From positions 1 to 64,000 of the forward strand of contig JALCRM010000002.1 of NCBI GenBank assembly GCA_022652545.1: a stretch of DNA of 64,000 nucleotides, in the 5' to 3' direction. Position 1 is the stretch's first letter. Every line of letters begins with the position of its first letter. The notes beneath the pieces are model-generated. The model was given only the letters and a program-made list of their open reading frames with translations, did no database searches and was not told where the DNA came from. The translations under genes were made by a program, and so were the position numbers. The stretch is from Lachnospiraceae bacterium. GTDB taxonomy: Bacteria; Bacillota; Clostridia; Lachnospirales; Lachnospiraceae. Below, piece by piece: positions 47,363 to 62,275 of this stretch.

Positions 47363-48871
47363 ATGGCTGAGATACGAATAGATACAGACAGAGAGACCGG
47401 AAAAAGAAGTGATATGATATACGGTCACTTTCTGGAACATTTTCACAGGCAGGTATATGGCGGTTTATATGATCCGAACAATGCTTTATCAGACGATGAA
47501 GGAATGCGGGAAGATGTAATTGAGGCTATGCGCAGGATAAAAGTTCCGATATTGCGCTGGCCCGGCGGCTGCTTTGCATCCGCATATCACTGGAAGTATG
47601 GCGTGGGACGGAAACGTCAGACGGTATTTGATAAAGCGTGGAGAGTGGAAGAGCCGAATTTATTCGGTACCGATGAATATATCAGCTTGTGCAGAAAAGT
47701 CGGATGTAAGCCATATATTTGTACAAATGCCGGCACTGGTTCCGCTGAGGAAATGTCAGATTGGGTTGAATATTGTAATCTGGCATCGGAAGGAAAGTAT
47801 GCCGGCTGGCGTATAGAAAACGGTAACCCTGACAGCTTTGACGTTAAATACTGGAGCATCGGAAATGAAAATTACGGCAGTTGGGAAATAGGTGCGAAAA
47901 GAGCTGAAGAGTGGCCTTCACTTGTAAAAGAATCAGCAAAAATGATGAAACATGTTGATCCTACGATTGAACTTTCGGCAGCGGCAATCACGGATGTTGA
48001 CTGGACATTGAATCTTATACGTGCATGTGCGCCTTTTCTCGACTGGATTTCTATTCACGAGTATTGGGATATGATGGCGGAAGAGCACAAACCGGCTTCA
48101 TACGACGTGTGTATTAAGTATTGCGAGGATGTGGGACATTCGGTACGAAAGATACGGGGGATATTGGAAACGCTCGGATTGGAAAAGCAGATAAAAGTTG
48201 CTTTTGACGAATGGAATCTTCGAAGCTGGCATCATCCCAATGTTTTGACTGTAAAGCAGGGTATAACGAAAGAAGAGTATATCCTGCCGAGGGATAAAAA
48301 TGATGATAACAGCACCTATACGATGGCAGATGCTGTTTTTGCCGCATGTTTTCTGAATGAAATGAACAGAAACTGTGATCTGGTAGGCATGGCAAATTTT
48401 TCGCCGATCGTCAATACCACCGGCTGCATATACAGCTATCCGGACGGTATCGTGTTAAGAAGCACTTATTATGTATTTGAACTGTATGTGCGCCATCTGG
48501 GCGACATTGTCTTAAATTCATGGACAAAAGACAATGAGGAAGCCGGAATCTGCTGCGCCGATAAAAAGGCTGAAACAGGTGCAATAGATGCGATAGCAAC
48601 AAAATTCAGCGGAAGTGACGGTATAGCGATAGCTGCCGTAAACAAAAGCAAAACAGAACACATTAAAATAGACATAAATATAACTAATAAAAATGAAAAG
48701 ACAGAGAGCAGAAGCGTCCTGCTGAATTATCTCAATGGACCTTCAGCAGATTCCTACAATGATGTCGGAAGAACTGAAATTGAAATAAAGCAAAAATCTT
48801 TTGGAATATTTAAAAATGGCATGAGCATTACATTGGAACCGCATTCTGTCAATATTATTGAAATAAGGTAG
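47363..48871 (+). CDS. GH51 alpha-L-arabinofuranosidase
   Basis: A 502-residue intracellular enzyme removing arabinofuranose from arabinan or arabinoxylan oligosaccharides. YGHFLEHFHRQVYGGLYDP and LRWPGGCFASAYHW are typical. The acid/base Glu ~169 is in GNENYG and the nucleophile Glu ~283 is in FDEWN. A C-terminal beta domain closes the chain. No signal peptide. gaaagaagg lies before the ATG. It opens the AT-rich island, and the next 200 bp are a gene remnant. Confidence 0.95.
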   Translation: MAEIRIDTDRETGKRSDMIYGHFLEHFHRQVYGGLYDPNNALSDDEGMREDVIEAMRRIKVPILRWPGGCFASAYHWKYGVGRKRQTVFDKAWRVEEPNLFGTDEYISLCRKVGCKPYICTNAGTGSAEEMSDWVEYCNLASEGKYAGWRIENGNPDSFDVKYWSIGNENYGSWEIGAKRAEEWPSLVKESAKMMKHVDPTIELSAAAITDVDWTLNLIRACAPFLDWISIHEYWDMMAEEHKPASYDVCIKYCEDVGHSVRKIRGILETLGLEKQIKVAFDEWNLRSWHHPNVLTVKQGITKEEYILPRDKNDDNSTYTMADAVFAACFLNEMNRNCDLVGMANFSPIVNTTGCIYSYPDGIVLRSTYYVFELYVRHLGDIVLNSWTKDNEEAGICCADKKAETGAIDAIATKFSGSDGIAIAAVNKSKTEHIKIDINITNKNEKTESRSVLLNYLNGPSADSYNDVGRTEIEIKQKSFGIFKNGMSITLEPHSVNIIEIR

Positions 48872-48873
48872 CA

Positions 48874-49077
48874 TGGTATTTATGGGGTGCTACTTCAAAG
48901 AAGCCGGATCATTGCTGGATGATTTATAACAATATACAGCGTATAGGGGCTCTCATTAAAGGTGCAGATTATTGCGTCAGAGTGGATGCATTTAATGAAA
49001 ACGGGATTACAGAGGGCACAATTACCCATATTGGCTATGCAGTGACGAATACTGGCTTAGACAATAATAAATACTAA
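48874..49077 (+). pseudogene. C-terminal remnant of a probable GH43 glycosidase
   Basis: Too short for the ORF track and without a start. The frame (different from GH51) reads WYLWGATSKKPDHCWMIYNN, then RVDAFNENGITEG and ends at TAA 49075. The 'DxFNENGITEG' ending is typical of clostridial GH43 beta-xylosidase/arabinofuranosidase proteins. It begins 2 bp after the GH51 stop, so a deletion or recombination joined the GH51 gene to the tail of a lost gene. Family assignment is from memory of the motif and is moderate. Confidence 0.6.
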
Positions 49078-49376
49078 GCTGAGTTAATCTTAACGATTGT
49101 TTGAAAATGAAATTACATTAAGCCCTCATGATGGATTAGTCAGATCCTGATTCACAGAGATGTTATTTACAGAAAAACAGTGATATAAGAAACACCTTAT
49201 ATGATTGGAAAATAAAGAATTGACAGCAAGGATGTAATATAGTTCGGTGAAGCTGAAAATAACCCTTTAAGGATGAAAAATATTCTTGACACATTAGGGT
49301 GGTAAATGTACAACTATAGTAAGTTAAGATAATTAAGTAAGTCAATGAGACAACATCGCTCAAGAAGGAGGAATAA
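49078..49376 (+). promoter_or_regulatory. intergenic region with candidate promoter before the iron dehydrogenase
   Basis: About 300 bp of AT-rich DNA. TTGACA (49286), 17 bp, TACAAC (49309-49314) fits a sigma-A promoter ~63 bp before the start codon. Nothing else is recognised. Confidence 0.5.
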
Positions 49377-50546
49377 TTGAATAGTTTTTCATATTATGCT
49401 CCCACTAAGATCTTATTTGGTTTGGGATCAGTCAATCAGATAGGAAAAGAAGCTAAAGCATTCGGGAGAAAGGCACTTTTAGTTCACGGGAGTAATAAGT
49501 CCTCGCATTCTTCAATATATGAAAATATAAAAAAGGTACTTGTGGATAGTGGAATAGAAGTGTCTGATTTTGATGGCGTACTTCCAAATCCCACAACAGA
49601 AGTTGTAACTGCAGGTGCCCTAATTGCTAAAGAAAATAAGGCGGATATGGTAATTGGCATAGGCGGCGGATCGGCCATGGATACTGCAAAAGCAATTGCT
49701 GTAGAATCGACACATCGTGGCACGGCATTTGATTATCTGTTTTATACGGATGGGCCTACCTGCAAGACGCTGCCAATTATTGCAGTCGGAACAACTGCTG
49801 GGACAGGATCACAGGTAACACCGTGTTCGGTAATTACAAATACAAAAGATAAAAACAAATCAGCGATATGGAATGCTAACATATTTCCAAAAGTTGCAAT
49901 AGTAGACCCGGTTTTGACAGCCTCTATGCCCGTAAATGTAACAGCGCAAACTGGATTTGATGCATTTTGCCATAATTTTGAGGCCTATATTTCAAGAAAT
50001 ACGAATCCCCTTGTTGAGGCAATGGCAATTGATGCAATCAAAATTATAGCTAAACAGCTTCCAATTGTGATAAGAGACGGCCAAAATATGGAAGCACGAT
50101 CTCAAATGGCATGGGCAGATACACTCGGCGGATTGACCAATGCTTCCGGAGGCGTAACATTGCCCCACGGGCTTGGAATGCAAGTGGGAGGACATTGCCC
50201 GAATGTCACACATGGACAATCGCTTGCTATTATATATCCACAATTCATGAGATTTACTTGGAAAGCATCAATTCAGAAATTCGCAACTGTCGGACGTATT
50301 TTTAATCCGAAATTGTGTCAGGAACCAGATGAAGTTGCTGCAGAAATGAGCTGTATAGCCATAGATGATTTTTTAAAAGAAATTGGATTGTGGATTGGTT
50401 TCAAAGATCTCGGCGTTTCAAATGATGAAATATATGAGATTGCTGAATGCGGTCATGTTTTAAACGATTATAAAAACAATCCAAGAGTAGCAACTATTGA
50501 AGAAATGCATGAACTTTTAAAAGCGTGTTATGAACGAACTGAGTAA
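49377..50546 (+). CDS. iron-containing (group III) alcohol dehydrogenase
   Basis: A 389-residue NAD(P) enzyme. GIGGGSAMDTAKAIAV is the nucleotide-binding motif. Metal-ligand His residues are in LPHGLGMQVGGHCPNVTHGQ. Possible substrates include lactaldehyde (from fucose), butyraldehyde or another sugar-derived aldehyde; the fucosidase-type gene nearby makes lactaldehyde attractive, but this is inference. It starts with TTG at 49377 behind a strong aaggagga site. Confidence 0.88.
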   Translation: MNSFSYYAPTKILFGLGSVNQIGKEAKAFGRKALLVHGSNKSSHSSIYENIKKVLVDSGIEVSDFDGVLPNPTTEVVTAGALIAKENKADMVIGIGGGSAMDTAKAIAVESTHRGTAFDYLFYTDGPTCKTLPIIAVGTTAGTGSQVTPCSVITNTKDKNKSAIWNANIFPKVAIVDPVLTASMPVNVTAQTGFDAFCHNFEAYISRNTNPLVEAMAIDAIKIIAKQLPIVIRDGQNMEARSQMAWADTLGGLTNASGGVTLPHGLGMQVGGHCPNVTHGQSLAIIYPQFMRFTWKASIQKFATVGRIFNPKLCQEPDEVAAEMSCIAIDDFLKEIGLWIGFKDLGVSNDEIYEIAECGHVLNDYKNNPRVATIEEMHELLKACYERTE

Positions 50547-50558
50547 TGAAATGAAATA

Positions 50559-50604
50559 AAAAGATTGCAATCTATACCGTAATGGTATAGACTGCAATCT
50601 TTTT
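50559..50604. terminator. bidirectional terminator
   Basis: AAAGATTGCA..TATACC-gtaat-GGTATA..TGCAATCTTT with A and T runs on either side, between the convergent dehydrogenase and ROK genes. Confidence 0.88.
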
Positions 50605-50608
50605 TATA

Positions 50609-51820
50609 TCAGCGGATCATTTCTCCACCCTTTTTAATCAACTCATCAAGAAGAAAGGTTGCAGCACCGATGGAAGCACAGTAAATTCCTAACTTAGAGA
50701 TCACTATATCACACTTCTTAACGGGCATCACATGATGGTTGACTTCTTCAATTAGAGGGCTCAAAAGCAGATCACCTGCACGACTGACACCACCTTCAAG
50801 GATAATAATTGCTGGATCAATAAAATTAATGGCGCTTCCTATAGCAGAGCCTAAATATACAATAGCCTGGTGCAGTATGGTATTTGCCAACGGGTCACCA
50901 GCGGCAGCAGCTTCAAAAATTATTTTCGCGTCAATCTTTTTCAAATCTCCCTGGACCATAGAAGATATCATTGATACCGCACCGCTTTTTATGGCTGCTT
51001 GAGCTTGCTTTGAGATAGCGTTTGCTGAAGCAACAGCCTCAAGACAACCATAGTTTCCACAACTGCATTTGGGACCATTCTGCTCAACTATTACATGTCC
51101 CAATTCTCCGCTTGCGCCACTGTCACCATTATATATTCTGTGGTTAATTACTATTGCTGATCCGATGCCATAGCCAAGATTAACGCAAATATAGTTATTT
51201 ATATTATGCCCTAATCCAAAATACAACTCACCCATGGCCATTGATTTCGTAACATTGTTTATACGCATCGGAAGATTGAAGTGCTGTCTTAACTCTTTTA
51301 GAAGATCCTTATCTTTCCAGCCAAAGGCCGGCGAGAGGAGAATCTTACCACTTTCGGGTGATATAACTCCGGGCATGCCAATCCCAATTCCCAAAATCTG
51401 AGCGATATCAATCTTTGATGTAGCTATAATCTTATCTATACAATACACAACCTGTGCAACGACCTCATTAAAATGTCTCTCAGCGGAGGTCGGCTGTTGA
51501 TAGGAGCTTAGCATATTTGCATCCAAGTCCATTAAAATGACGTTGATATTGGTTGTTCCAATATCGATTCCAATTATGTACATTGAGTCACCGGCAAAGG
51601 ATAGAAGACGAGGCGGTTTGCCGCCTGTAGACTTGGCAATTTCACCTTCTATAACAAGACCTTTAGAGATTAGGCTATCAGTAATCTTCATAACCGTAGG
51701 AATGCTGAGATTGGTTATGCGTGAAATTTCTGCTCTATAGATTGGCGATTTCTCTCTTATTATATCCAGAATAGTGCTTTTATTTACTAGAGACATAATA
51801 GACTTATCCATGCGGTCCAT
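50609..51820 (-). CDS. ROK-family transcriptional repressor (XylR/NagC type)
   Basis: 403 residues. N-terminal winged helix-turn-helix (EISRITNLSIPTVMKITDSLISKGLV, ~28-55), then the ROK sugar-kinase-like fold with the ATP motif DIGTTNINVILMD and the zinc site CSCGNYGCLEAVAS. Members bind a free sugar or sugar phosphate and release DNA; here probably a xylose-, arabinose- or fucose-related ligand. aggtgagg precedes ATG 51820. The upstream 130 bp repeats AGCAATAT about 20 bp apart. Confidence 0.92.
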   Translation of the reverse strand: MDRMDKSIMSLVNKSTILDIIREKSPIYRAEISRITNLSIPTVMKITDSLISKGLVIEGEIAKSTGGKPPRLLSFAGDSMYIIGIDIGTTNINVILMDLDANMLSSYQQPTSAERHFNEVVAQVVYCIDKIIATSKIDIAQILGIGIGMPGVISPESGKILLSPAFGWKDKDLLKELRQHFNLPMRINNVTKSMAMGELYFGLGHNINNYICVNLGYGIGSAIVINHRIYNGDSGASGELGHVIVEQNGPKCSCGNYGCLEAVASANAISKQAQAAIKSGAVSMISSMVQGDLKKIDAKIIFEAAAAGDPLANTILHQAIVYLGSAIGSAINFIDPAIIILEGGVSRAGDLLLSPLIEEVNHHVMPVKKCDIVISKLGIYCASIGAATFLLDELIKKGGEMIR

Positions 51821-51949
51821 TTCACGAACACCTCACCTTTTTTTAAAAATAATACATCAGAATATAAGCAATATCAGTCATATGCCAGCAATATTGTTTA
51901 CAATGTTTAGCTTCCGAAGGTATGCATTTACACGCTAAGCTGTTTGAGG

Positions 51950-53521
51950 TTAATGTTTGTTCCTGAATGTGGATGGTGTACATCCAACAATCTTTTTGAA
52001 TGTAGTATTGAAATAGGCAAGGGAATTAAACCCCACTTTTTCTGATATTTCATATAACTTTAAATTTGTGTTAAGGAGATATTCCTTGGCTTTTCCAATA
52101 CGATACTGATTAATATAATTTGGAATGCTTGTTCCGACATTTTTATTAAAAATGCGGCTAAGGTATGTTTCGCTTACCTCCAAAGAATCTGCAATATTAC
52201 TGACGGAAATATCATTCACATAGTTTTTGTTAATAAATTGAATCGTCTGCTTGGATAAGTAATCAATTTGTTCGATCTTGTCTAGCTGAAAGCTATAAAA
52301 TATTTCTGAATCAAATAGTTTATTTAGGGCTTCAAAAGTTTCACAGGAATTTATTTTTTCTATTGTAAGCTTATCCACTGTCTGATTATTAGTGTGGATG
52401 CTTCTTGCAATTCCAATATATAAGCTCTTTATCTGTTCCGGGAATAGCAGAGGAAGTTTTTTGTATTTTAGGCATAAATCAGGAATATCCGATAGATAAT
52501 TGCGTAAGCTCTTATAACCATTTATATCGCAATAGAGGAATAACTGATTTGCAATATTATTGTATTGCTCTTGCGTACAAAAATCATAACATTTATCTTT
52601 GTAAAAAATAATTTCTTCTTTTGGATTATAAAAATAAACGATCATGGCATTGATAGCCTGTCGATATGATTCATCAAGAGAAGAAAGACTGTGGAACGGT
52701 GATCCAATGCCAAAGATGATAGAAATATTTAGATAGGTTTTTCCCAATTCGGATAATTTTTCAATTTTCTCTGAAATCATATCCTGGATTTTCCGAGACT
52801 CATCAATATTGGAAAAACTAAGCAATAATATAAACTCGTTTTCTTTATTTCTGAATAATTCTTTAGCTGGGATATCTGAAAGAGCATTTTCAAATATTGT
52901 ACACATAGAAGAAACCAGAAAAGAAATATCATTATTCTGATATCTCCTGATAACGTCACTGAAGTGGGAAATTGCAAAAACAATGCAACAACAGTTTTTT
53001 TCATCAATTGAGATATATTGTGAGAGTTTGACATTCTTATCTATAGTTCCGTTTATTATATGCTTTAGAATATCTTCATGGTAAATAGTGCTTATCTTTT
53101 TGAGATCTCCGGAAATATTTTCGAGATTTAGATTTTTGTTGTCTGTTTGTATTTTGCTTCTTAGCTTGTTGAGGGAATTGATAAGGTTATCATGATTCAG
53201 TGTGTTTTTCAGAATATAATCATCCGCACCGTTAATTAACGCTTCTTTCACCAAATTAAATTCGTCGTGACAACTAAGAACTAGTACTTTTGGAGGATGT
53301 GCCATATCCTTCAGCTTCTTTAGCATCGTGATTCCATCCATTACCGGCATGGTTAAATCAAGGAGAATAATATCAGGCTTGCTCTTCCCTATCAGAGACA
53401 GCGCTTCTTCACCGTCTTCAGCGGAGCCGCACACATGATAATCTGTTGCATTTTCAAGTAAATGCACTATTTCGACGCGCATAAGTAATTCATCGTCTAC
53501 TACTAAAATGCGAGTTGCCAT
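51950..53521 (-). CDS. response regulator with AraC-type DNA-binding domain (YesN type)
   Basis: 523 residues. The receiver domain (RILVVDDELLMRVEI; phospho-Asp in PDIILLDLTMPVMDG at ~55) is intact. A ~270-residue middle region has no clear known fold. The C-terminal AraC HTH pair is INKNYVNDISVSNIADSLEVSETYLSRIFNKNVG plus GFNSLAYFNTTFKKIVGCTP. Such regulators activate nearby sugar ABC importers. It is read after the histidine kinase gene with a 14-bp gap. Confidence 0.94.
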   Translation of the reverse strand: MATRILVVDDELLMRVEIVHLLENATDYHVCGSAEDGEEALSLIGKSKPDIILLDLTMPVMDGITMLKKLKDMAHPPKVLVLSCHDEFNLVKEALINGADDYILKNTLNHDNLINSLNKLRSKIQTDNKNLNLENISGDLKKISTIYHEDILKHIINGTIDKNVKLSQYISIDEKNCCCIVFAISHFSDVIRRYQNNDISFLVSSMCTIFENALSDIPAKELFRNKENEFILLLSFSNIDESRKIQDMISEKIEKLSELGKTYLNISIIFGIGSPFHSLSSLDESYRQAINAMIVYFYNPKEEIIFYKDKCYDFCTQEQYNNIANQLFLYCDINGYKSLRNYLSDIPDLCLKYKKLPLLFPEQIKSLYIGIARSIHTNNQTVDKLTIEKINSCETFEALNKLFDSEIFYSFQLDKIEQIDYLSKQTIQFINKNYVNDISVSNIADSLEVSETYLSRIFNKNVGTSIPNYINQYRIGKAKEYLLNTNLKLYEISEKVGFNSLAYFNTTFKKIVGCTPSTFRNKH

Positions 53522-53535
53522 CTTCTACCTCTTTG

Positions 53536-55317
53536 TCATGAAATAAGTTCACATGGAAGGACGACTGTTATGGCCGTATACTCATTTATCTTGCTTTCTA
53601 TCGATATGCCATAATTTTCTCCGCACATCATCTTAATCCGGTTATTAACATTTTCCAGACCAATATGCTTATGAGCTCTGAACTGCGAGTTTCCTCTTTC
53701 CTGCAGCAATGATTCTTTTACATTTTCTGGTATTCCAATCCCATTGTCTTTTACAGTAATTCGGATTTCATTGCTGTCTGACTCAAAGCCAATGACAATT
53801 TGCTTTTGCCCATCCTTTTTAGAAAATCCGTGAATTATTGAATTCTCTATCAGCGGTTGAAGGATGAAGCGGGGAATTTTTTTCGCCTTTAATTCTTCGG
53901 GGCATATACATTTATAATCGATTTCATTCATATATCGAAAGTTCATGATTGCCATGTAATTATCGATACCGTGGATTTCATCTTCAAGAGGAACAATTTC
54001 AGAGCTCGTATTTAAGCAATATCTTAAAAAGGAAGCAAACTTACCGATTATATTAGAAATAGACAGGGATCCTTGAATTTCTGACATGATTTTTATTGAA
54101 TTCAAGGTGTTATAGATAAAATGAGGGTTGATCTGTGCCTGCAACGCGGACAATTCGGCTTCTCGTTTTTCTTTCTCATTTACTTTGATTTTTGAAATCA
54201 GTTCTCTTACCGATTCACTTAACTGATTGAATGAATGTGCGAGTTGACCGATTTCATCATTACCTTCTTCAGCGTGAATATTGAGGCCGTTCTGCTCTGC
54301 ATCAGAAATGGATTTTTGCAGACTAAGGATTGGAATGGTAATGTACTCGGATGCCTTTTTGGCAGCAAAAGAGATTAATATAAGAGTTAGACAAACAGTA
54401 ATTACACCAGTTATCAATATCATTTTTTGCTCAGAGATAATCTCGTCAACTGGTATTACATTGATTATTCTTATTCCATATTTATCCGGAGCAGTAACAT
54501 TGATTAAGTAAGGACGAATTTTCTGCCAGGATATAAAACGAAAAGAGGCTTTAACGGTCTTTGATTCATTTACGATTCTTTCTTTTACTTTTAAATCAGG
54601 ATCAACATTGTCATGCTGAAAGAAAATATTGTTTTCGCACATAAGAAGATGATAGCTATTATGAGTGATTTGTCCATCATCCCACAGTTCCTGAATTTTA
54701 TCGTTCGTCATATTAATTATAAATACTCCTAATAATTTATCATTATCAAGAGGATCGACCAACGATCTTCCCACAGAAATCGTATCGCTATTGGAATTAA
54801 TTGCAGGATTATTCTGAATACCTATGACAACTATTTTTCCTTTGCTATTTGCAATTTCATCATAAGCGGTAATTTCTTTCGGGCTGTGCTTGCTATAGGG
54901 ATTGCTTGCCACCTGATAAATATAGCCAACATTTTCCGGTATCAAAAATAGAGAATTGATGGAGTCACTTAGGTGGTAGAAGACAGACATGACTTGAATA
55001 ATGTCTCGATAATCCTGATATTTTTCCAATTCTTCTTTGGCACCATAGTCGCTATAATCTTTGCGCAAGTCTGTGGAAATTGATTTATCCAATGTAAAAT
55101 AATTTGAAAGAGAACAGAGAGAATCGATGGAATACTCAACATTTTTCATCGCCTGAGTGTCATTAGAATTGATTAAATTTATTACATGATCTCCAATATA
55201 CCTGATATCAAGGAATAGCAAAATCAGAACAGTTATTACTGATGGAATCAGGACATACCTAAGGATTGCTTTATAGAATTTTGTTTTGATAGATACAAAA
55301 TCGCCGCTGTTTGTCAT
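53536..55317 (-). CDS. sensor histidine kinase, YesM type
   Basis: 593 residues. First span ~18-38, a ~270-residue extracellular sensor region, second span (KMILITGVITVCLTLILISFAAKK), a HAMP domain, the His_kinase H-box QINPHFIYNTLNSIKIMSE and a HATPase domain (NGIGIPENVK). This family senses extracellular sugars, often through a binding protein. Divergent from the importer operon that it probably controls. Confidence 0.94.
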   Translation of the reverse strand: MTNSGDFVSIKTKFYKAILRYVLIPSVITVLILLFLDIRYIGDHVINLINSNDTQAMKNVEYSIDSLCSLSNYFTLDKSISTDLRKDYSDYGAKEELEKYQDYRDIIQVMSVFYHLSDSINSLFLIPENVGYIYQVASNPYSKHSPKEITAYDEIANSKGKIVVIGIQNNPAINSNSDTISVGRSLVDPLDNDKLLGVFIINMTNDKIQELWDDGQITHNSYHLLMCENNIFFQHDNVDPDLKVKERIVNESKTVKASFRFISWQKIRPYLINVTAPDKYGIRIINVIPVDEIISEQKMILITGVITVCLTLILISFAAKKASEYITIPILSLQKSISDAEQNGLNIHAEEGNDEIGQLAHSFNQLSESVRELISKIKVNEKEKREAELSALQAQINPHFIYNTLNSIKIMSEIQGSLSISNIIGKFASFLRYCLNTSSEIVPLEDEIHGIDNYMAIMNFRYMNEIDYKCICPEELKAKKIPRFILQPLIENSIIHGFSKKDGQKQIVIGFESDSNEIRITVKDNGIGIPENVKESLLQERGNSQFRAHKHIGLENVNNRIKMMCGENYGISIESKINEYTAITVVLPCELIS

Positions 55318-55488
55318 TTTTCTCTCCTCAAGCTACCCATTATAACTGCTCCCCGAAAAAATGTGTATACTGTGCAAAATTGCCGCTTCTAATCCGGCAT
55401 ATGATGACTTAATTTCCAAACGGTCATGACGGAGAGCAGAAAAATTAAAAAATTAGCACGAAATTAGAACTTTATGTCCCTAAGAAGT

Positions 55489-55507
55489 TGCTATATTTTC
55501 TATAGCA
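55489..55507. promoter_or_regulatory. inverted repeat TGCTATA-N5-TATAGCA before the importer
   Basis: Perfect 7-bp arms about 40 bp before the binding-protein start in the 226-bp gap between the sensor kinase and the importer. The repeat also contains -10-like TATA sequences. Candidate operator for the ROK protein or a site near the YesN activator; inferred from position. Confidence 0.45.
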
Positions 55508-55543
55508 CTTATTTTTATTCTCGAAGGGAGGAAGGTACAAAAT

Positions 55544-56869
55544 ATGAAGAAATATTCAGCGGTTTTATTATCAATGGCGGTTGTTGTTTCGTCAATTACT
55601 GGATGCGGGGCTGGGTCAACTGGGCAGGCGACGACCACAACAACTTCTGAAGCAGTGACATCAACGGCAGCAACCTCATCGGAGGCAGCAGTTGCTGCAA
55701 GCACAACGACAAGTGGCGATAGCGGTGATGGTGTAACAATTACTTTCGGTTCATGGGGAAATGATTATGAAATTGAATCATATAAAAAAATGGCCGAAGG
55801 TGTTTCAGATGCTGTTCCGGGAGTAAAAGAAGTCAAGTTTATTACATATGCCAGTACTGACGACTTTTGGAACAATATACCTTCGCAGATGGCGGCAGGG
55901 ACAGCACCGGATCTGATATATCCTACTGATGAAAATGCATATGAGTATATTAGGGGCGGCCTTTATGATGCTATTGACACAAGTTCAATTGATTTGAGCG
56001 ATGTATCAAAAGATGCTCTGAAGGTGTGGACAATAGATGACAAGCTCTATGGTATTCCGCTGACAATGCAGCCTACCTGCTTACTTCTTAACCTTGATCT
56101 GTTTAAACAGTACGGTTTTACAGAAGCAGATTACCCGAAGTCCTGGGATGATGTCAGGAAAATTGCCGAAAAGGTAAGCGATCCGAAAAATAATTTCTAT
56201 GGGCTTTGCTTATACATGGAGAACCCCTTCCACTTTACGCAGGTGCTGCAGGGATTCGGCGGAAGCTGGGGAAACGGCAAGACAATTGACAGCGAGAAAA
56301 ATGAAGAGGCCCTTCAGTGGGCTATTGATATGTTTAAAGATGGACTTGCTGTGAGTCCGACGCAGCTTGGTGATCATTGGGACGGTGAAACCTTTGCGGC
56401 AAATAAGTGTCTTATGACTACTGGCGGTGTTTGGTATTATGGACAGATGCAGTCTGCTGCTCCAAAAACCAATTATATAGCTCTTCCGATTCCGCAACAG
56501 GATTGGGATACTCCAGCTTGCTCTCTTCATTCCAGCGCATTAGTGATATTAAAGAATTGCCAACATAAAGACTTAGCATCAAAGGTAGCGGCATATATGG
56601 CCAGAAAAGACGCACAGAAAATTAACACGGACGCTTCAGGAGCAATACCGTCTAATCCGGAATTAAAGGAGGAGTACTTTAAGTCACATACTCAGTTTAC
56701 ACAATTGGATGGGGCGGAAAAATATGCTGTATCTTTCGGGTATCCTTCAAAAACGACAGAGTTTGAAACAGATTTTGTAAATGCGGTAACTGCCGTAATC
56801 TATGATTCCACGAATAATACATCAGCTAAGGATATTTTGTCACAGCTTCAGTCGCAGTATGGCGAATAA
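55544..56869 (+). CDS. sugar ABC transporter substrate-binding lipoprotein (family 1)
   Basis: 441 residues. Signal peptide with lipobox SITGCG (Cys ~21), a Thr/Ser/Ala-rich linker, then the family 1 solute-binding fold (ITFGSWGNDYEIESYKKMAEG... MAAGTAPDLIYPTDENAYEYI). These bind oligosaccharides. First gene of the island importer; no ATPase is encoded here, so a shared MsmX-type ATPase elsewhere is expected. gggagg precedes the ATG. Confidence 0.93.
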   Translation: MKKYSAVLLSMAVVVSSITGCGAGSTGQATTTTTSEAVTSTAATSSEAAVAASTTTSGDSGDGVTITFGSWGNDYEIESYKKMAEGVSDAVPGVKEVKFITYASTDDFWNNIPSQMAAGTAPDLIYPTDENAYEYIRGGLYDAIDTSSIDLSDVSKDALKVWTIDDKLYGIPLTMQPTCLLLNLDLFKQYGFTEADYPKSWDDVRKIAEKVSDPKNNFYGLCLYMENPFHFTQVLQGFGGSWGNGKTIDSEKNEEALQWAIDMFKDGLAVSPTQLGDHWDGETFAANKCLMTTGGVWYYGQMQSAAPKTNYIALPIPQQDWDTPACSLHSSALVILKNCQHKDLASKVAAYMARKDAQKINTDASGAIPSNPELKEEYFKSHTQFTQLDGAEKYAVSFGYPSKTTEFETDFVNAVTAVIYDSTNNTSAKDILSQLQSQYGE

Positions 56870-56882
56870 CGAATACTAATAC

Positions 56883-56916
56883 AAAGGCTCATTCTATTTA
56901 GTACGAGTGAGCCTTT
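56883..56916 (+). terminator. stem-loop between binding protein and permease
   Basis: AAAGGCTCA pairs with TGAGCCTTT around a 16-base loop; there is no strong T run. Likely a leaky terminator or mRNA-stabilising hairpin. Confidence 0.5.
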
Positions 56917-56939
56917 GCGAGTTTTATGAGGGACAAGAA

Positions 56940-57841
56940 GTGAAAAAGAAGATTGGAAGAAACGATAAAAAAAGATGGTTGACTGCATATCTGTTCATTT
57001 TACCAGCAGCGATATTTTGGACTTATTGGTTTTTTATACCGGCGTGTGAGTCATTCGGGCTGAGCTTTTTTGAATATAATTATGTTATGCCATTAAACAA
57101 TCATTTTGTTGGATTGAATAACTATATCAAACTGTTTTCAGATAATAATTTCCTTAGGGCAATTCAACACTCACTTACAATAGTCGCGGTTGCAGTTCCT
57201 ATACAAACAATTATATCCTTACTGATGGCTTTGATTATTAATAAAAATTTTAAAGGAAGAGGATTCTTCCGTACATTATTCTATTCTCCATATGTTATTT
57301 CTTCTTTAGCCGTTGCAACAGTATTTATGTATTTGTTTGCTCAAAACCAGCCATTAACAAATTTGTTTTCAAAATTATTTGGGATGGAAAATTCTGCATG
57401 GGCCGTAAATGTAAGATATGCACTTATACTTGTAATACTGATGTACGTTTGGCAACAAGTTGGGTTTTACATGGTTATGTACCTTTCTGGTCTTCAAACA
57501 ATACCAGGGGAGATCAATGAATCAGCCAAGATAGATGGCGCAAGCGGCTTTCAAATTTTTTGGTATATTACGCGCCCCTTATTAAAACCGACAACTTTCC
57601 TGGTCATTACATATGGCGTGATTTCAGCTTTTCAGATATTTGATCAAATTTCTGCAGTTGCCGGTACTGGTGTTTTAGGTACTCCAGGGGGGGGGCACTT
57701 AATACAGTTGTAACCTATTTTTATCTGAATTCCTTTAGATATGGAGAAGTGGGATATGGAAGTGCAGCAGTAATGATATTGTTCTTTGGAATACTTCTGG
57801 TGACGATGGTTCAAAAAAAGTTACTTGATAAGGAAGAATGA
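56940..57841 (+). pseudogene. sugar ABC permease (MalF type) frameshifted at a run of nine G
   Basis: GTG start at 56940 behind tgaggga. The first ~252 residues are a normal MalF-type permease with about six spans and the coupling motif INESAKIDGASGFQIFWYITRPLL. At GTGVLGTPGGG, a G9 tract (57687-57695) throws the frame into HLIQL and a stop at 57713. One more G (or two fewer) continues ALNTVVTYFYLNSFRYGEVG to TGA 57841, restoring the expected last span. So the gene is either phase-variable, slippage-expressed, mutant or misassembled. The second permease starts 10 bp later. Confidence 0.8.
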
Positions 57842-57851
57842 AGGTAGGAAT

Positions 57852-58661
57852 ATGAGATTAATTAGAAGAATATTATTTATTATTGTTCTACTTCTGTTTT
57901 CTGTGATTTTTCTTTATCCTCTTATCTATACTGTACAAAATTCGCTTGTTGATTTGAGCGATCTGGGAAAATTCGTTCCTTTGTCAAGACTGACACTAGA
58001 TAACTATATTCTTTTGTTTACTCAATATCCAGTCACCAGGTGGTTTATGAATACGTTAGTCGTAACGATATGCTGCGTGATTAGCCAGATACTTGTTAAC
58101 ACGCTTGCAGGATACGCTTTAGCAAGATTTGATTTCCCCGGGAAAAATGCAATTTTTATTATTGTGCTAGCTTCAATGATGATTCCTTTCCAATTTATTT
58201 TAACACCGGTCTATATCAGGCTGGCACAGTTTAAGTGGAACGATCATTTGATTTCACTAATCGTACCATTTATCTTTCAAAGTTTATTTGTTTTTATGTC
58301 GAGGCAATTCTTTTTGACAATTCCGAAAGAACTCGAGGATGCTGCCAGGGTCGATGGGCTTGGATACGCTGGAACTTTTTTCAAGATCGTACTTCCGATT
58401 TCAGGCCCATTGATTACCTCGATAACTATATTAGCGTTTACTGGTACATGGAATTCATATATGGCGCCATCTACTTTTATGATGACGAGGGAGAGATTCG
58501 TTTTATCTGTTGGCTTGAAAACGGTCCGAGATTTCCAATTTGTAAAAATGAACGTAACGCTCGCCGGAGTAGTATTATTATCTCTTCCAATTTTGGTTAT
58601 GTTTCTATGCCTGCAGAAGCATTTTATGGAAGGTATCGCAACAACCGGTATAAAAGGTTGA
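57852..58661 (+). CDS. sugar ABC permease (MalG type)
   Basis: 269 residues with six spans. The coupling motif is IPKELEDAARVDGLGYAGTFFKIVLPISGP. ATG 57852 lies 10 bp after the intact end of the first permease gene; the track ORF begins 9 codons earlier inside it. Partner of the frameshifted permease; without that partner the importer would not work. Confidence 0.93.
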   Translation: MRLIRRILFIIVLLLFSVIFLYPLIYTVQNSLVDLSDLGKFVPLSRLTLDNYILLFTQYPVTRWFMNTLVVTICCVISQILVNTLAGYALARFDFPGKNAIFIIVLASMMIPFQFILTPVYIRLAQFKWNDHLISLIVPFIFQSLFVFMSRQFFLTIPKELEDAARVDGLGYAGTFFKIVLPISGPLITSITILAFTGTWNSYMAPSTFMMTRERFVLSVGLKTVRDFQFVKMNVTLAGVVLLSLPILVMFLCLQKHFMEGIATTGIKG

Positions 58662-58748
58662 TCTATATGCAATATGCGTCTGATTTAAATTAAGTGCCTG
58701 AGGAAAAATAGGTAGCTTGATCAAAACCACTATTCTCTATAAGACAAA

Positions 58749-61145
58749 ATGGGACGAATGATGAGTAATTCGATTTTATGGTATAAAGAACCAGCACAAT
58801 TCTGGAATGAAGCTTTACCTTTAGGTAATGGGATAATGGGTGCAATGATCTATAGTGACCCAGTTAATGAGAAGATTATGCTTAATAATGAAACTTTATG
58901 GTCAGGATTTCCCAGGGACTACCATAATAATGAGGCATACTCAAATCTTACTAAAGTAAGAGGACTAATATTAGAAGGAAAAGAAAAAGAAGCACAAAAT
59001 ATTATGGAAGCTCACATGCAGGGGAGATTTAATGAATCCTTTTTGCCAATGGGAGAAATTACTATCGGATATGATAAAGAAAAATCGTATACAGGGTATA
59101 AAAGAAAACTTGATTTAGAAACAGCAGTAATATCAAGCTCGTGGACTACATCTAGCGGTGAGAACAGACAAGCGTTATGTTTCATAAGCCAACCGGATAA
59201 TGTTTTGATATATCGTATATCAGGTAAGAGTTTATCATTGAGAATCAATTTAAACAGCTCACTAAAAAATACCGTGTTTTCCGAGGATAATGGATTGTTT
59301 TTGTGTGGGGAAGCGCCGTCTCATGTTGTTCCTCATTATTGGCCTTCTGATAATCCAATTGAATATGGAGATGATTCGCATAAGCACGGAATGAATTTCG
59401 GAATATATGCCACAGTAAATGCAGGACACGGAGACGTGCAAATTGACAATGGAAGTTTATTAATTGCGAATTCTTCAGAAGTCACTGTATCTGTTTATAC
59501 GGAAACAGGATTTGTTGCTTATAACAAATATCCGGGAACCGGTTGGAATGATATATCAAAACAGTTAATTGAACACTGCCAAAAAGTAAATCAGCATAAT
59601 TACGATTCCGTTTTGAAAAATCATATTCGTGAATATCAAAAATACTATTTTGCAAATCAGCTTGTTATTCAAGAGGATTCTATTGAGGAAATACCAACAA
59701 ATGTGAGAGTTATTCACTACCGTGAAACAAAAAAGGATAATGGGCTTATTGCACTTTTATATAATTATGGTAGATATCTATTATTATCTTCCTCGAGAAA
59801 ATGCAATGAACCGGCGAATCTACAAGGAATTTGGAACAAGGAGAATAGACCATATTGGAGTTGTAATTACACTTCTAATATCAATCTTCAGATGAATTAT
59901 TGGCCCGCTGAAGTCTGTAATTTATCAGTTTGCACAATGCCGTTGATTAATTTGATAGAGCAGGTGAGCAGAGACGGTAAAATGACAGCGAATATTCATT
60001 ATGGCTGCCATGGTTGGACTGCGCACCACAATATTGATTTATGGAGACAGGCAATACCGGCAGGAGCTAAAGAAGCTACAACGGGGCTTGCTACCTCTCT
60101 GTTCTGGTGTATGGCAGGTGGTTGGCTTTGCAGGCATCTTTGGGATCATTATTTATTTTCGCTTGACGTGGATTTCCTTCAAAATGAGGCAATGCCTATT
60201 ATTATTGGTGCGGTTGACTTCTATCTGGATTGGATGGTTTTGCTGAAAGACGGCACATATACTACTATTCCGGCATTCTCCCCGGAAAACAGTTACTATA
60301 CAGATAATAAAGAACGTTGCAGCGTATCAGCTGGCAGTACAATGGATCAGCAGATTATTACAGATACATTCAATTATTTTTTGGAAGCTTCAAAAATCTG
60401 TAAATTTGAAAATGGCTCTCAGGCAGGGCAAGAACAAGATAATAGAATCAATAGAGTCAAAGAACATCTTAATAGGATGCGCCCGATTTTATGTGATGAT
60501 CACGGTAGAATATTAGAATGGGAAAAAGAAAGGTTACCGTTTGAGCCGGGGCACAGGCATCAATCTCCTCTATATGGACTTTTTCCGGCATGTTTAATTA
60601 ATGAAAATACTCCGGCACAATTTGAAGCATCAAGAAAATTTTTGGATTGGAAGACGAATAACCACAGCAGTGATTTTGGATGGAGCTTAGCTTGGGTTAT
60701 CTGTTTGTATTCACGTTTGAAAGATAAAGATAAGGTAAATGAAAAAATAAAAATGTTTATTAGTGGTTCAATATATCCAAATCTGTTTACACTTTTCCCG
60801 CCGCTGTCTAAAGAAGAAAAAGAGGTATTTCAGATTGATGCTATTTTTGGCTTTACTGCAGCAATCGCTGAGTGCCTTTTACAGAGCCAAAATGGAGAAC
60901 TCGATGTTCTACCTTGTCTTCCGGCATGCATGAATAGCGGTAAGGTTTTTGGCCTATGTGCCAGAGGCGGATATGTGGTTGACATTGCATGGAAAGATCG
61001 AATGTTGATTAGCCTTTCTATAATGAGCAAGAGCAACAGCATTGTTAAGATCAGGTACCGGGAGATGAAAAAGGAAATTAAGATTAATAAAAATGAGACG
61101 AAAACGATGGATAATAAATTGAAATTGATTAATCGTGATGTATAG
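58749..61145 (+). CDS. GH95 glycosidase (alpha-L-fucosidase/alpha-L-galactosidase type)
   Basis: 798 residues, no signal peptide, so likely intracellular. N-terminal beta domain starts WYKEPAQFWNEALPLGNGIMGAM. The (alpha/alpha)6 barrel holds NLQGIWNKENRPYWSCNYTS and NINLQMNYWPAE (the two catalytic Asn), TIPAFSPENSY (the likely acid Glu) and FQIDAIFGFTAAIAE (the Asp). The usual 'IDGNFG' reads IDAIFG here. Substrates of the family are alpha-1,2-fucosides (xyloglucan, host glycans) or alpha-L-galactosides. The start could also be ATG 58758 or 58761, since no clear ribosome site decides. Confidence 0.9.
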   Translation: MGRMMSNSILWYKEPAQFWNEALPLGNGIMGAMIYSDPVNEKIMLNNETLWSGFPRDYHNNEAYSNLTKVRGLILEGKEKEAQNIMEAHMQGRFNESFLPMGEITIGYDKEKSYTGYKRKLDLETAVISSSWTTSSGENRQALCFISQPDNVLIYRISGKSLSLRINLNSSLKNTVFSEDNGLFLCGEAPSHVVPHYWPSDNPIEYGDDSHKHGMNFGIYATVNAGHGDVQIDNGSLLIANSSEVTVSVYTETGFVAYNKYPGTGWNDISKQLIEHCQKVNQHNYDSVLKNHIREYQKYYFANQLVIQEDSIEEIPTNVRVIHYRETKKDNGLIALLYNYGRYLLLSSSRKCNEPANLQGIWNKENRPYWSCNYTSNINLQMNYWPAEVCNLSVCTMPLINLIEQVSRDGKMTANIHYGCHGWTAHHNIDLWRQAIPAGAKEATTGLATSLFWCMAGGWLCRHLWDHYLFSLDVDFLQNEAMPIIIGAVDFYLDWMVLLKDGTYTTIPAFSPENSYYTDNKERCSVSAGSTMDQQIITDTFNYFLEASKICKFENGSQAGQEQDNRINRVKEHLNRMRPILCDDHGRILEWEKERLPFEPGHRHQSPLYGLFPACLINENTPAQFEASRKFLDWKTNNHSSDFGWSLAWVICLYSRLKDKDKVNEKIKMFISGSIYPNLFTLFPPLSKEEKEVFQIDAIFGFTAAIAECLLQSQNGELDVLPCLPACMNSGKVFGLCARGGYVVDIAWKDRMLISLSIMSKSNSIVKIRYREMKKEIKINKNETKTMDNKLKLINRDV

Positions 61146-61222
61146 GGGATGCTTTAGCTTACATAATAATATGAATTCATTCACTAATTATTGAATACGA
61201 GTTATAGAAGAGGGAAATATAT

Positions 61223-62275
61223 ATGAGAAATAAAATGAAAGTGGCGATTATGACTGGCCTCATGAAAATGGATTTTACGGAAAGCCCGATTCCTCAACCG
61301 AAAGATGATGAGGCATTGGTGAAAGTTGAGTATGTAGGTGTCTGTGGGTCTGATCTACACTATTATGAGCAAGGAAAAATTGGAAATTATATTGTAAAAC
61401 CTCCCTTCGTACTCGGACATGAAGCAGGTGGCGTTGTCGTAGAAGTTGGTAAAAAGGTGACGAATGTGAAGGTGGGGGACAAGGTTGCTCTGGAACCAGG
61501 TAAAACCTGTGGGCATTGCGAGTTTTGCAGGACAGGCAGATACAATCTTTGTCCGGACGTGCAGTTCTTTGCAACACCACCTGTAGATGGCGTTTTTCAG
61601 GAGTACGTGGCACATGAGGCGGATCTGTGCTTTAAGGTACCAGACAATATGGATACGATGGAGGCGGCTCTTATTGAACCGCTGGCCGTAGGATTCCATG
61701 CTGCGCGCCAAGGAGGCGCCACGGTCGGACAGACAGCAGTCGTTATGGGCGCTGGCTGTATCGGCCTTGTTAGCATGTTAGCAATGAAAGCTATGGGCGT
61801 TAATAACATTTATGTTGTCGATGTCATAGATAAAAGACTCGCAAAGGCAAAGGAACTCGGAGCTACGGAAATAATCAATGGCAAAAATAAAGACGCCGTG
61901 GAGGAAATCATGCGCCTGACAGGCGGAGCAGGAGCGGATCTGATGATTGAAACGGCAGGTACGGAGGTCACATCAAGACAGACTGTTTTTATGGCAAAGA
62001 AGGGCGCGACCATTGTCTTTGTGGGATATTCAAAGTCCGGAGAAATCACATTGCCGATGAGCACGGCACTTGATAAGGAACTGACATTCAAGACAGTTTT
62101 TCGCTATCGACACATTTATCCGCTGGCAATCGATGCCGTGGCCTCAGGTAGAATCAACCTCAAGGGCATTGTGACGAATATCTTTGATTTCGAAGATATC
62201 CAGAATGCCATGGATACCAGCGTGAAAGACAAGGCAAATGTCGTAAAAAGCATTATTAAATTCAGTAAGCAGTGA
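61223..62275 (+). CDS. zinc-dependent medium-chain dehydrogenase (sorbitol/xylitol dehydrogenase type)
   Basis: 350 residues. Catalytic zinc region VGVCGSDLHYYEQG and GHEAGG; structural zinc site CGHCEFCRTGRYNLC; NAD fold VVMGAGCIGLVSM. Closest in style to L-iditol 2-dehydrogenases that interconvert polyols and ketoses. Substrate here could be a pentitol or an intermediate of L-fucose/L-arabinose use. gagggaa lies before ATG 61223. Last gene of the island. Confidence 0.92.
   Translation: MRNKMKVAIMTGLMKMDFTESPIPQPKDDEALVKVEYVGVCGSDLHYYEQGKIGNYIVKPPFVLGHEAGGVVVEVGKKVTNVKVGDKVALEPGKTCGHCEFCRTGRYNLCPDVQFFATPPVDGVFQEYVAHEADLCFKVPDNMDTMEAALIEPLAVGFHAARQGGATVGQTAVVMGAGCIGLVSMLAMKAMGVNNIYVVDVIDKRLAKAKELGATEIINGKNKDAVEEIMRLTGGAGADLMIETAGTEVTSRQTVFMAKKGATIVFVGYSKSGEITLPMSTALDKELTFKTVFRYRHIYPLAIDAVASGRINLKGIVTNIFDFEDIQNAMDTSVKDKANVVKSIIKFSKQ

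Follow-up and report, generated by a model that had tools for sequence, protein, structure and literature searches.

A nine-G run places the end of a sugar permease gene out of frame, most likely through recent slippage or an error in the consensus

In the 64-kb window analysed here (the whole stretch of DNA under study), the end of a sugar permease gene is out of frame with the rest of the gene, most likely because slippage recently altered an error-prone G run, or else because the consensus is wrong there. The run of nine G lies at positions 57687–57695 on the + strand, within the gene for the first permease of an importer (permease 1). As assembled, this gene (56940..57713, + strand) encodes a MalF/UgpA/SugA-type permease of the BPD_transp_1 family, assigned from its ORF, from alignment A1 and from its match to the family profile (PF00528, 1.2e-16), with a conserved EAA-loop region, EINESAKIDGA. 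The ORF opens at 56907, but the GTG at 56940 is preceded by a GAGGGA ribosome-binding site and is taken as the start. The frame passes through the run as GTGVLGTPGGG-HLIQL-stop, with the stop codon at 57711–57713, and yields a protein of 257 amino acids that lacks the last membrane span. That span is found in another frame after the run: positions 57698–57838 are open, read LNTVVTYFYLNSFRYGEVGYGSAAVMILFFGILLVTMVQKKLLDKEE, and are followed by a TGA at 57839–57841, 10 bp upstream of the ATG of permease 2 at 57852. This detached 3' part (57698..57841, + strand, 47 codons plus the TGA) is intact and homologous to the C-termini of related permeases (tblastn to L027, L028, L033, L035 and L036; 67% identity to L028). 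Tract length thus sets the reading frame, nine G leading to the early stop and another length class opening the gene to the TGA. The initial annotation had reported the nine consecutive G and the early HLIQL stop, and had calculated that 7 or 10 G would restore the last span up to the TGA just before the next permease; both the observation and the arithmetic are borne out.

Comparison with related permeases indicates which length is ancestral. We collected 12 loci from named genomes, 11 of which, 44–71% identical to the window protein, were used for spacing. The conserved TP and LNT codons are separated by 11 nt in the window and by 9 nt in 11/11 relatives, as judged concordantly from alignment A1 and from the DNA of all 11, and in the five tblastn matches in which both flanks were aligned the gap is exactly 9 nt. 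At the tract site these proteins carry LG or IG, then S-P, two residues, and A or S. The spacing equivalent to seven G aligns without any gap (TP-GG-ALNT in the window, SP-GN-ALNT in L028) and gives a permease 1 of 299 amino acids, the same length as L028, while the 10-G form would carry one extra glycine that is present in 0/11 relatives. Judged from these sequences, the window is 2 nt longer than the ancestral spacing, which is equivalent to seven G. None of the 11 related permeases has a G run at this site, either in alignment A1 or in the DNA, which argues against a conserved switch; most likely the run originated within this lineage. No close ortholog of permease 1 was found in 62 congeners or in 397 genomes of the family, and at the DNA level neither plasmids nor the genus yielded a useful match to the same locus.

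The detached part of the gene does not look like an old relic. Compared with L028, the 5' part of permease 1 has a pN of about 0.18 (0.181) and a pS of 0.91, and the out-of-frame 3' part a pN of 0.215 and a pS of 0.77, pS being near saturation in both comparisons. By these values the two parts are under roughly equal constraint, which in the 3' part has persisted almost to the present. The remainder of the operon is intact. The sugar-binding lipoprotein of the same importer (55544..56869, + strand; PF13416, 5e-29; PF01547, 3e-21; 59% to L028) and permease 2 (57852..58661, + strand, ATG start; PF00528, 1.8e-13; 63% to L028) are uninterrupted, as are a divergent YesM-like sensor kinase (53536..55317, – strand; PF06580, PF02518), a response regulator with an AraC-type HTH (51950..53521, – strand; PF00072, PF12833) and a GH95 glycosidase of the fucosidase family (58749..61145, + strand; PF22124, 1e-134). 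The binding protein, permease 2, the two-component pair, the GH95 enzyme and a zinc dehydrogenase all give full or near-full-length family matches, and with all the neighbours examined being full length, decay of the whole island is ruled out. A constrained 3' part in an otherwise intact operon implies a frame shift that is of recent date, reversible or spurious. The gene order, with the binding protein followed by permeases 1 and 2, is that of MalF/UgpA/SugA-type systems (PF00528; PDB 7cad, 8ja7, 2r6g), which belong to the same family and are often adjoined by a YesM/YesN-like pair, as here; the assembled permease 1 differs from these permeases in lacking the last membrane span. The island (48000–62000) has 34–42% GC within a genome of 55–60% GC, and contains the end of an arabinofuranosidase-like gene, an iron-type alcohol dehydrogenase and a ROK protein, and also the two-component pair, the importer, GH95 and the zinc dehydrogenase; no tRNA was found in the 64-kb window.

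These properties lead us to favour, with confidence evenly balanced, the idea that the nine-G run is an incidental slippage hotspot and that a recent off-frame allele was captured in the assembled consensus. Two glycine codons beside a GCA codon would have created a G run in the loop that precedes the last membrane span, and slipped-strand mispairing would then have added two G to the run, or removed one from a 10-G form, to produce the off-frame allele. The tract site lies in the loop that joins the last two membrane spans, and an alignment of L028 with relatives of solved structure (SugA, the 7cad permease) passes through it to their last span. A permease 1 ending at the tract, without its last span, probably would not assemble, and the importer should fail in cells carrying that allele, the reading frame being restorable in principle by further slippage, though nothing points to selection for switching. 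The run, the frame break, the two extra nucleotides relative to the relatives and the constraint on the 3' part are direct observations, whereas slippage in the cell, the non-functional protein and the reversibility of the shift are inferred. This reading draws support from the 11-nt spacing against 9 nt in the 11 relatives and from the youth of the shift that an intact, constrained 3' part implies. It is weakened by the two steps required from seven G, by the presence of MutS and MutL genes, which lower slippage rates, and by the fact that a consensus error yields an identical pattern. Both mismatch repair genes are uninterrupted, and loss of mismatch repair is therefore ruled out.

Further support comes from the G runs elsewhere in the genome (2.67 Mb in 27 contigs, 81% complete), which contains 11 G/C runs of at least 7: seven of 7, two of 8, one of 9 and one of 12. 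Among the four of at least 8, three are coding and two of these three break their gene, namely the nine-G run of permease 1 and an 8-G run at C5:22051–22058 (L022:2052–2059, – strand) in the gene for a 1001-amino-acid sensor kinase of the CheB-CheR-PAS type. The kinase is interrupted just after KYTPEGG, within its ATPase domain, the remainder of the protein and the receiver domain lying in another frame; its relatives and its own paralogue are single-frame at this point (e.g. TPEGGKV), with a spacing in the relatives equivalent to seven G, and by this comparison the kinase run is also over-long. The third coding run, of 8 G at C4:156424, keeps the frame of a dihydrolipoamide-dehydrogenase-like gene. 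Of the seven 7-G runs, five are in frame with a gene, either internally or at its end, and the other two are Shine-Dalgarno sequences (L065, L066), which suggests that errors or slippage start at about eight G. All 26 coding A/T runs of 7–8 in a 480-kb sample are in frame as well, and thus neither the 7-G runs of the whole genome nor the sampled A/T runs showed a frame break. A break of the same kind was seen in a congener (G051, L083:1498–1506), where nine G, two nucleotides above the in-frame length, interrupt a sugar-binding protein gene. The kinase and G051 breaks, like the soundness of the shorter runs, are in favour of a slippage hotspot.

The number of long runs can be set against two expectations. 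From first-order composition, about 18 G/C runs of at least 9 would be expected genome-wide and 2 are observed, suggesting that long G/C runs are avoided in this genome. Relative to the decay extrapolated from runs of 4–7, the observed 11, 4 and 2 runs of at least 7, 8 and 9 compare with roughly 13, 1.5 and 0.2, small numbers in which the longest runs exceed the prediction and look as though slippage, whether in cells or during sequencing, had extended them, an excess that again agrees with a hotspot. Locally, a first-order Markov model of the 15-kb AT-rich island gives 0.025 expected G/C runs of at least 9, and a dinucleotide shuffle of the whole window gives 2.3 expected G8 matches, the shuffled sequence being mostly 55–60% GC, unlike the island. 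A codon-usage frameshift finder missed the permease 1 break because the island is AT-rich; most of its matches were operon overlaps.

A serious alternative is that the true gene is in frame, with 7 or 10 G, the run having been miscounted during library amplification, base calling or assembly; we regard it as possible but somewhat doubtful. The fragmented, incomplete assembly, the intact remainder of the operon and the restriction of frame breaks to G runs of at least 8, in two of three coding cases, agree with such an artefact, and the congeners point to poly-G as a problem spot in assemblies of this sort. G runs of at least 9 occur in 40 of 62 congeners, and among the 63 runs whose contexts were read, nine are found 100 nt or less from a scaffold gap; most of the runs in G051 and G040 that seem to be off frame belong to these nine. 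Poly-G/C runs of 9–13 at no more than 100 nt from N gaps were observed at L085, L087, L088, L089, L105, L107 and L113, and such gap-adjoining runs are probably scaffolding or sequencing artefacts. However, there is no N in the window or in the 400 kb sampled, and the sound 7-G runs and A/T runs of 7–8 rule out a general homopolymer error of the assembly. The C4 8-G run is in frame in its gene, and gap-free congener runs in clear genes are in frame in seven cases (9–10 G) and off frame in one, counts that serve as a guide only, as the classifier used the codon usage of the window's genome and left most runs unclassified.

The initial annotation had gone further and proposed a phase-variable importer. 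Its premises stand, since the frame effect is real and a run of this type and length is prone to slip; the switch itself is unsupported. That selection maintains the run to turn the importer on and off, in the manner of the contingency loci of Campylobacter and Neisseria, appears unlikely. The length and base of the run would suit slippage, the whole 3' part is retained and constrained, and the 12-G run on C1 and the kinase run could be additional loci. Nevertheless, the tract has no counterpart in 11/11 close relatives, the importer is no surface antigen, the genome carries mismatch repair genes, and the gap-free congener runs in genes are mostly in frame. Nor is the genome enriched for such tracts, as four runs of at least 8 in 2.67 Mb are fewer than composition predicts. 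The run also lies at about 84% of the gene, although this alone is not strong evidence against switching, because in a survey of homopolymeric tracts the 5'-end bias was found for A/T and not for G/C runs (PMC2831843). In the systems of that survey (swrA, flhA, inlA), slipped-strand mispairing in a coding run turns a gene off and on, as is conceivable here, but the tracts are mostly A/T, near the 5' end, and switching was measured, while permease 1 has a G run near its 3' end. According to PMC8355987, Campylobacter has, like this genome, G/C homopolymer runs within or between genes, and there they are hypermutable, with phase variation established; here there are four runs of at least 8, unconserved, in a genome with mutS and mutL. 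The broader proposal that poly-G slippage switches a set of metabolic contingency loci, comprising the horizontally acquired, GH95-linked importer, the CheB-CheR-type kinase and possibly a transporter promoter, is decidedly improbable.

The closest parallel is the G7 run of Mycobacterium tuberculosis glpK, in which a one-base expansion recurs in isolates (PMC6667613). In both cases a G run lies in a carbon-source gene and its expansion shifts the frame in a potentially reversible way, but many isolates carried glpK length variants, with Sanger sequencing as a check, whereas permease 1 is known from one assembled consensus. If the run varies in living cells, this bacterium would hedge its sugar use by slippage, as a metabolic analogue of glpK; if it is invariant, the case calls for caution, and gene breaks at G runs of at least 8 in this assembly should not be taken as biology without reads.

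Recoding, by a –1 ribosomal slip on G GGG GGG or by RNA polymerase slippage yielding some full-length permease 1, is very improbable: nine G form a homogeneous slippery sequence from which a –1 slip enters the downstream frame, but the relatives do without it and the RNA structure downstream of the run is unexceptional (z = –1.39), too weak for a frameshift-stimulating structure. Finally, the 12-G run at C1:255671–255682 (L020:2672–2683) is intergenic, between divergent genes for an MFS transporter and an amino-acid-binding protein, where variation in its length might possibly alter promoter spacing.
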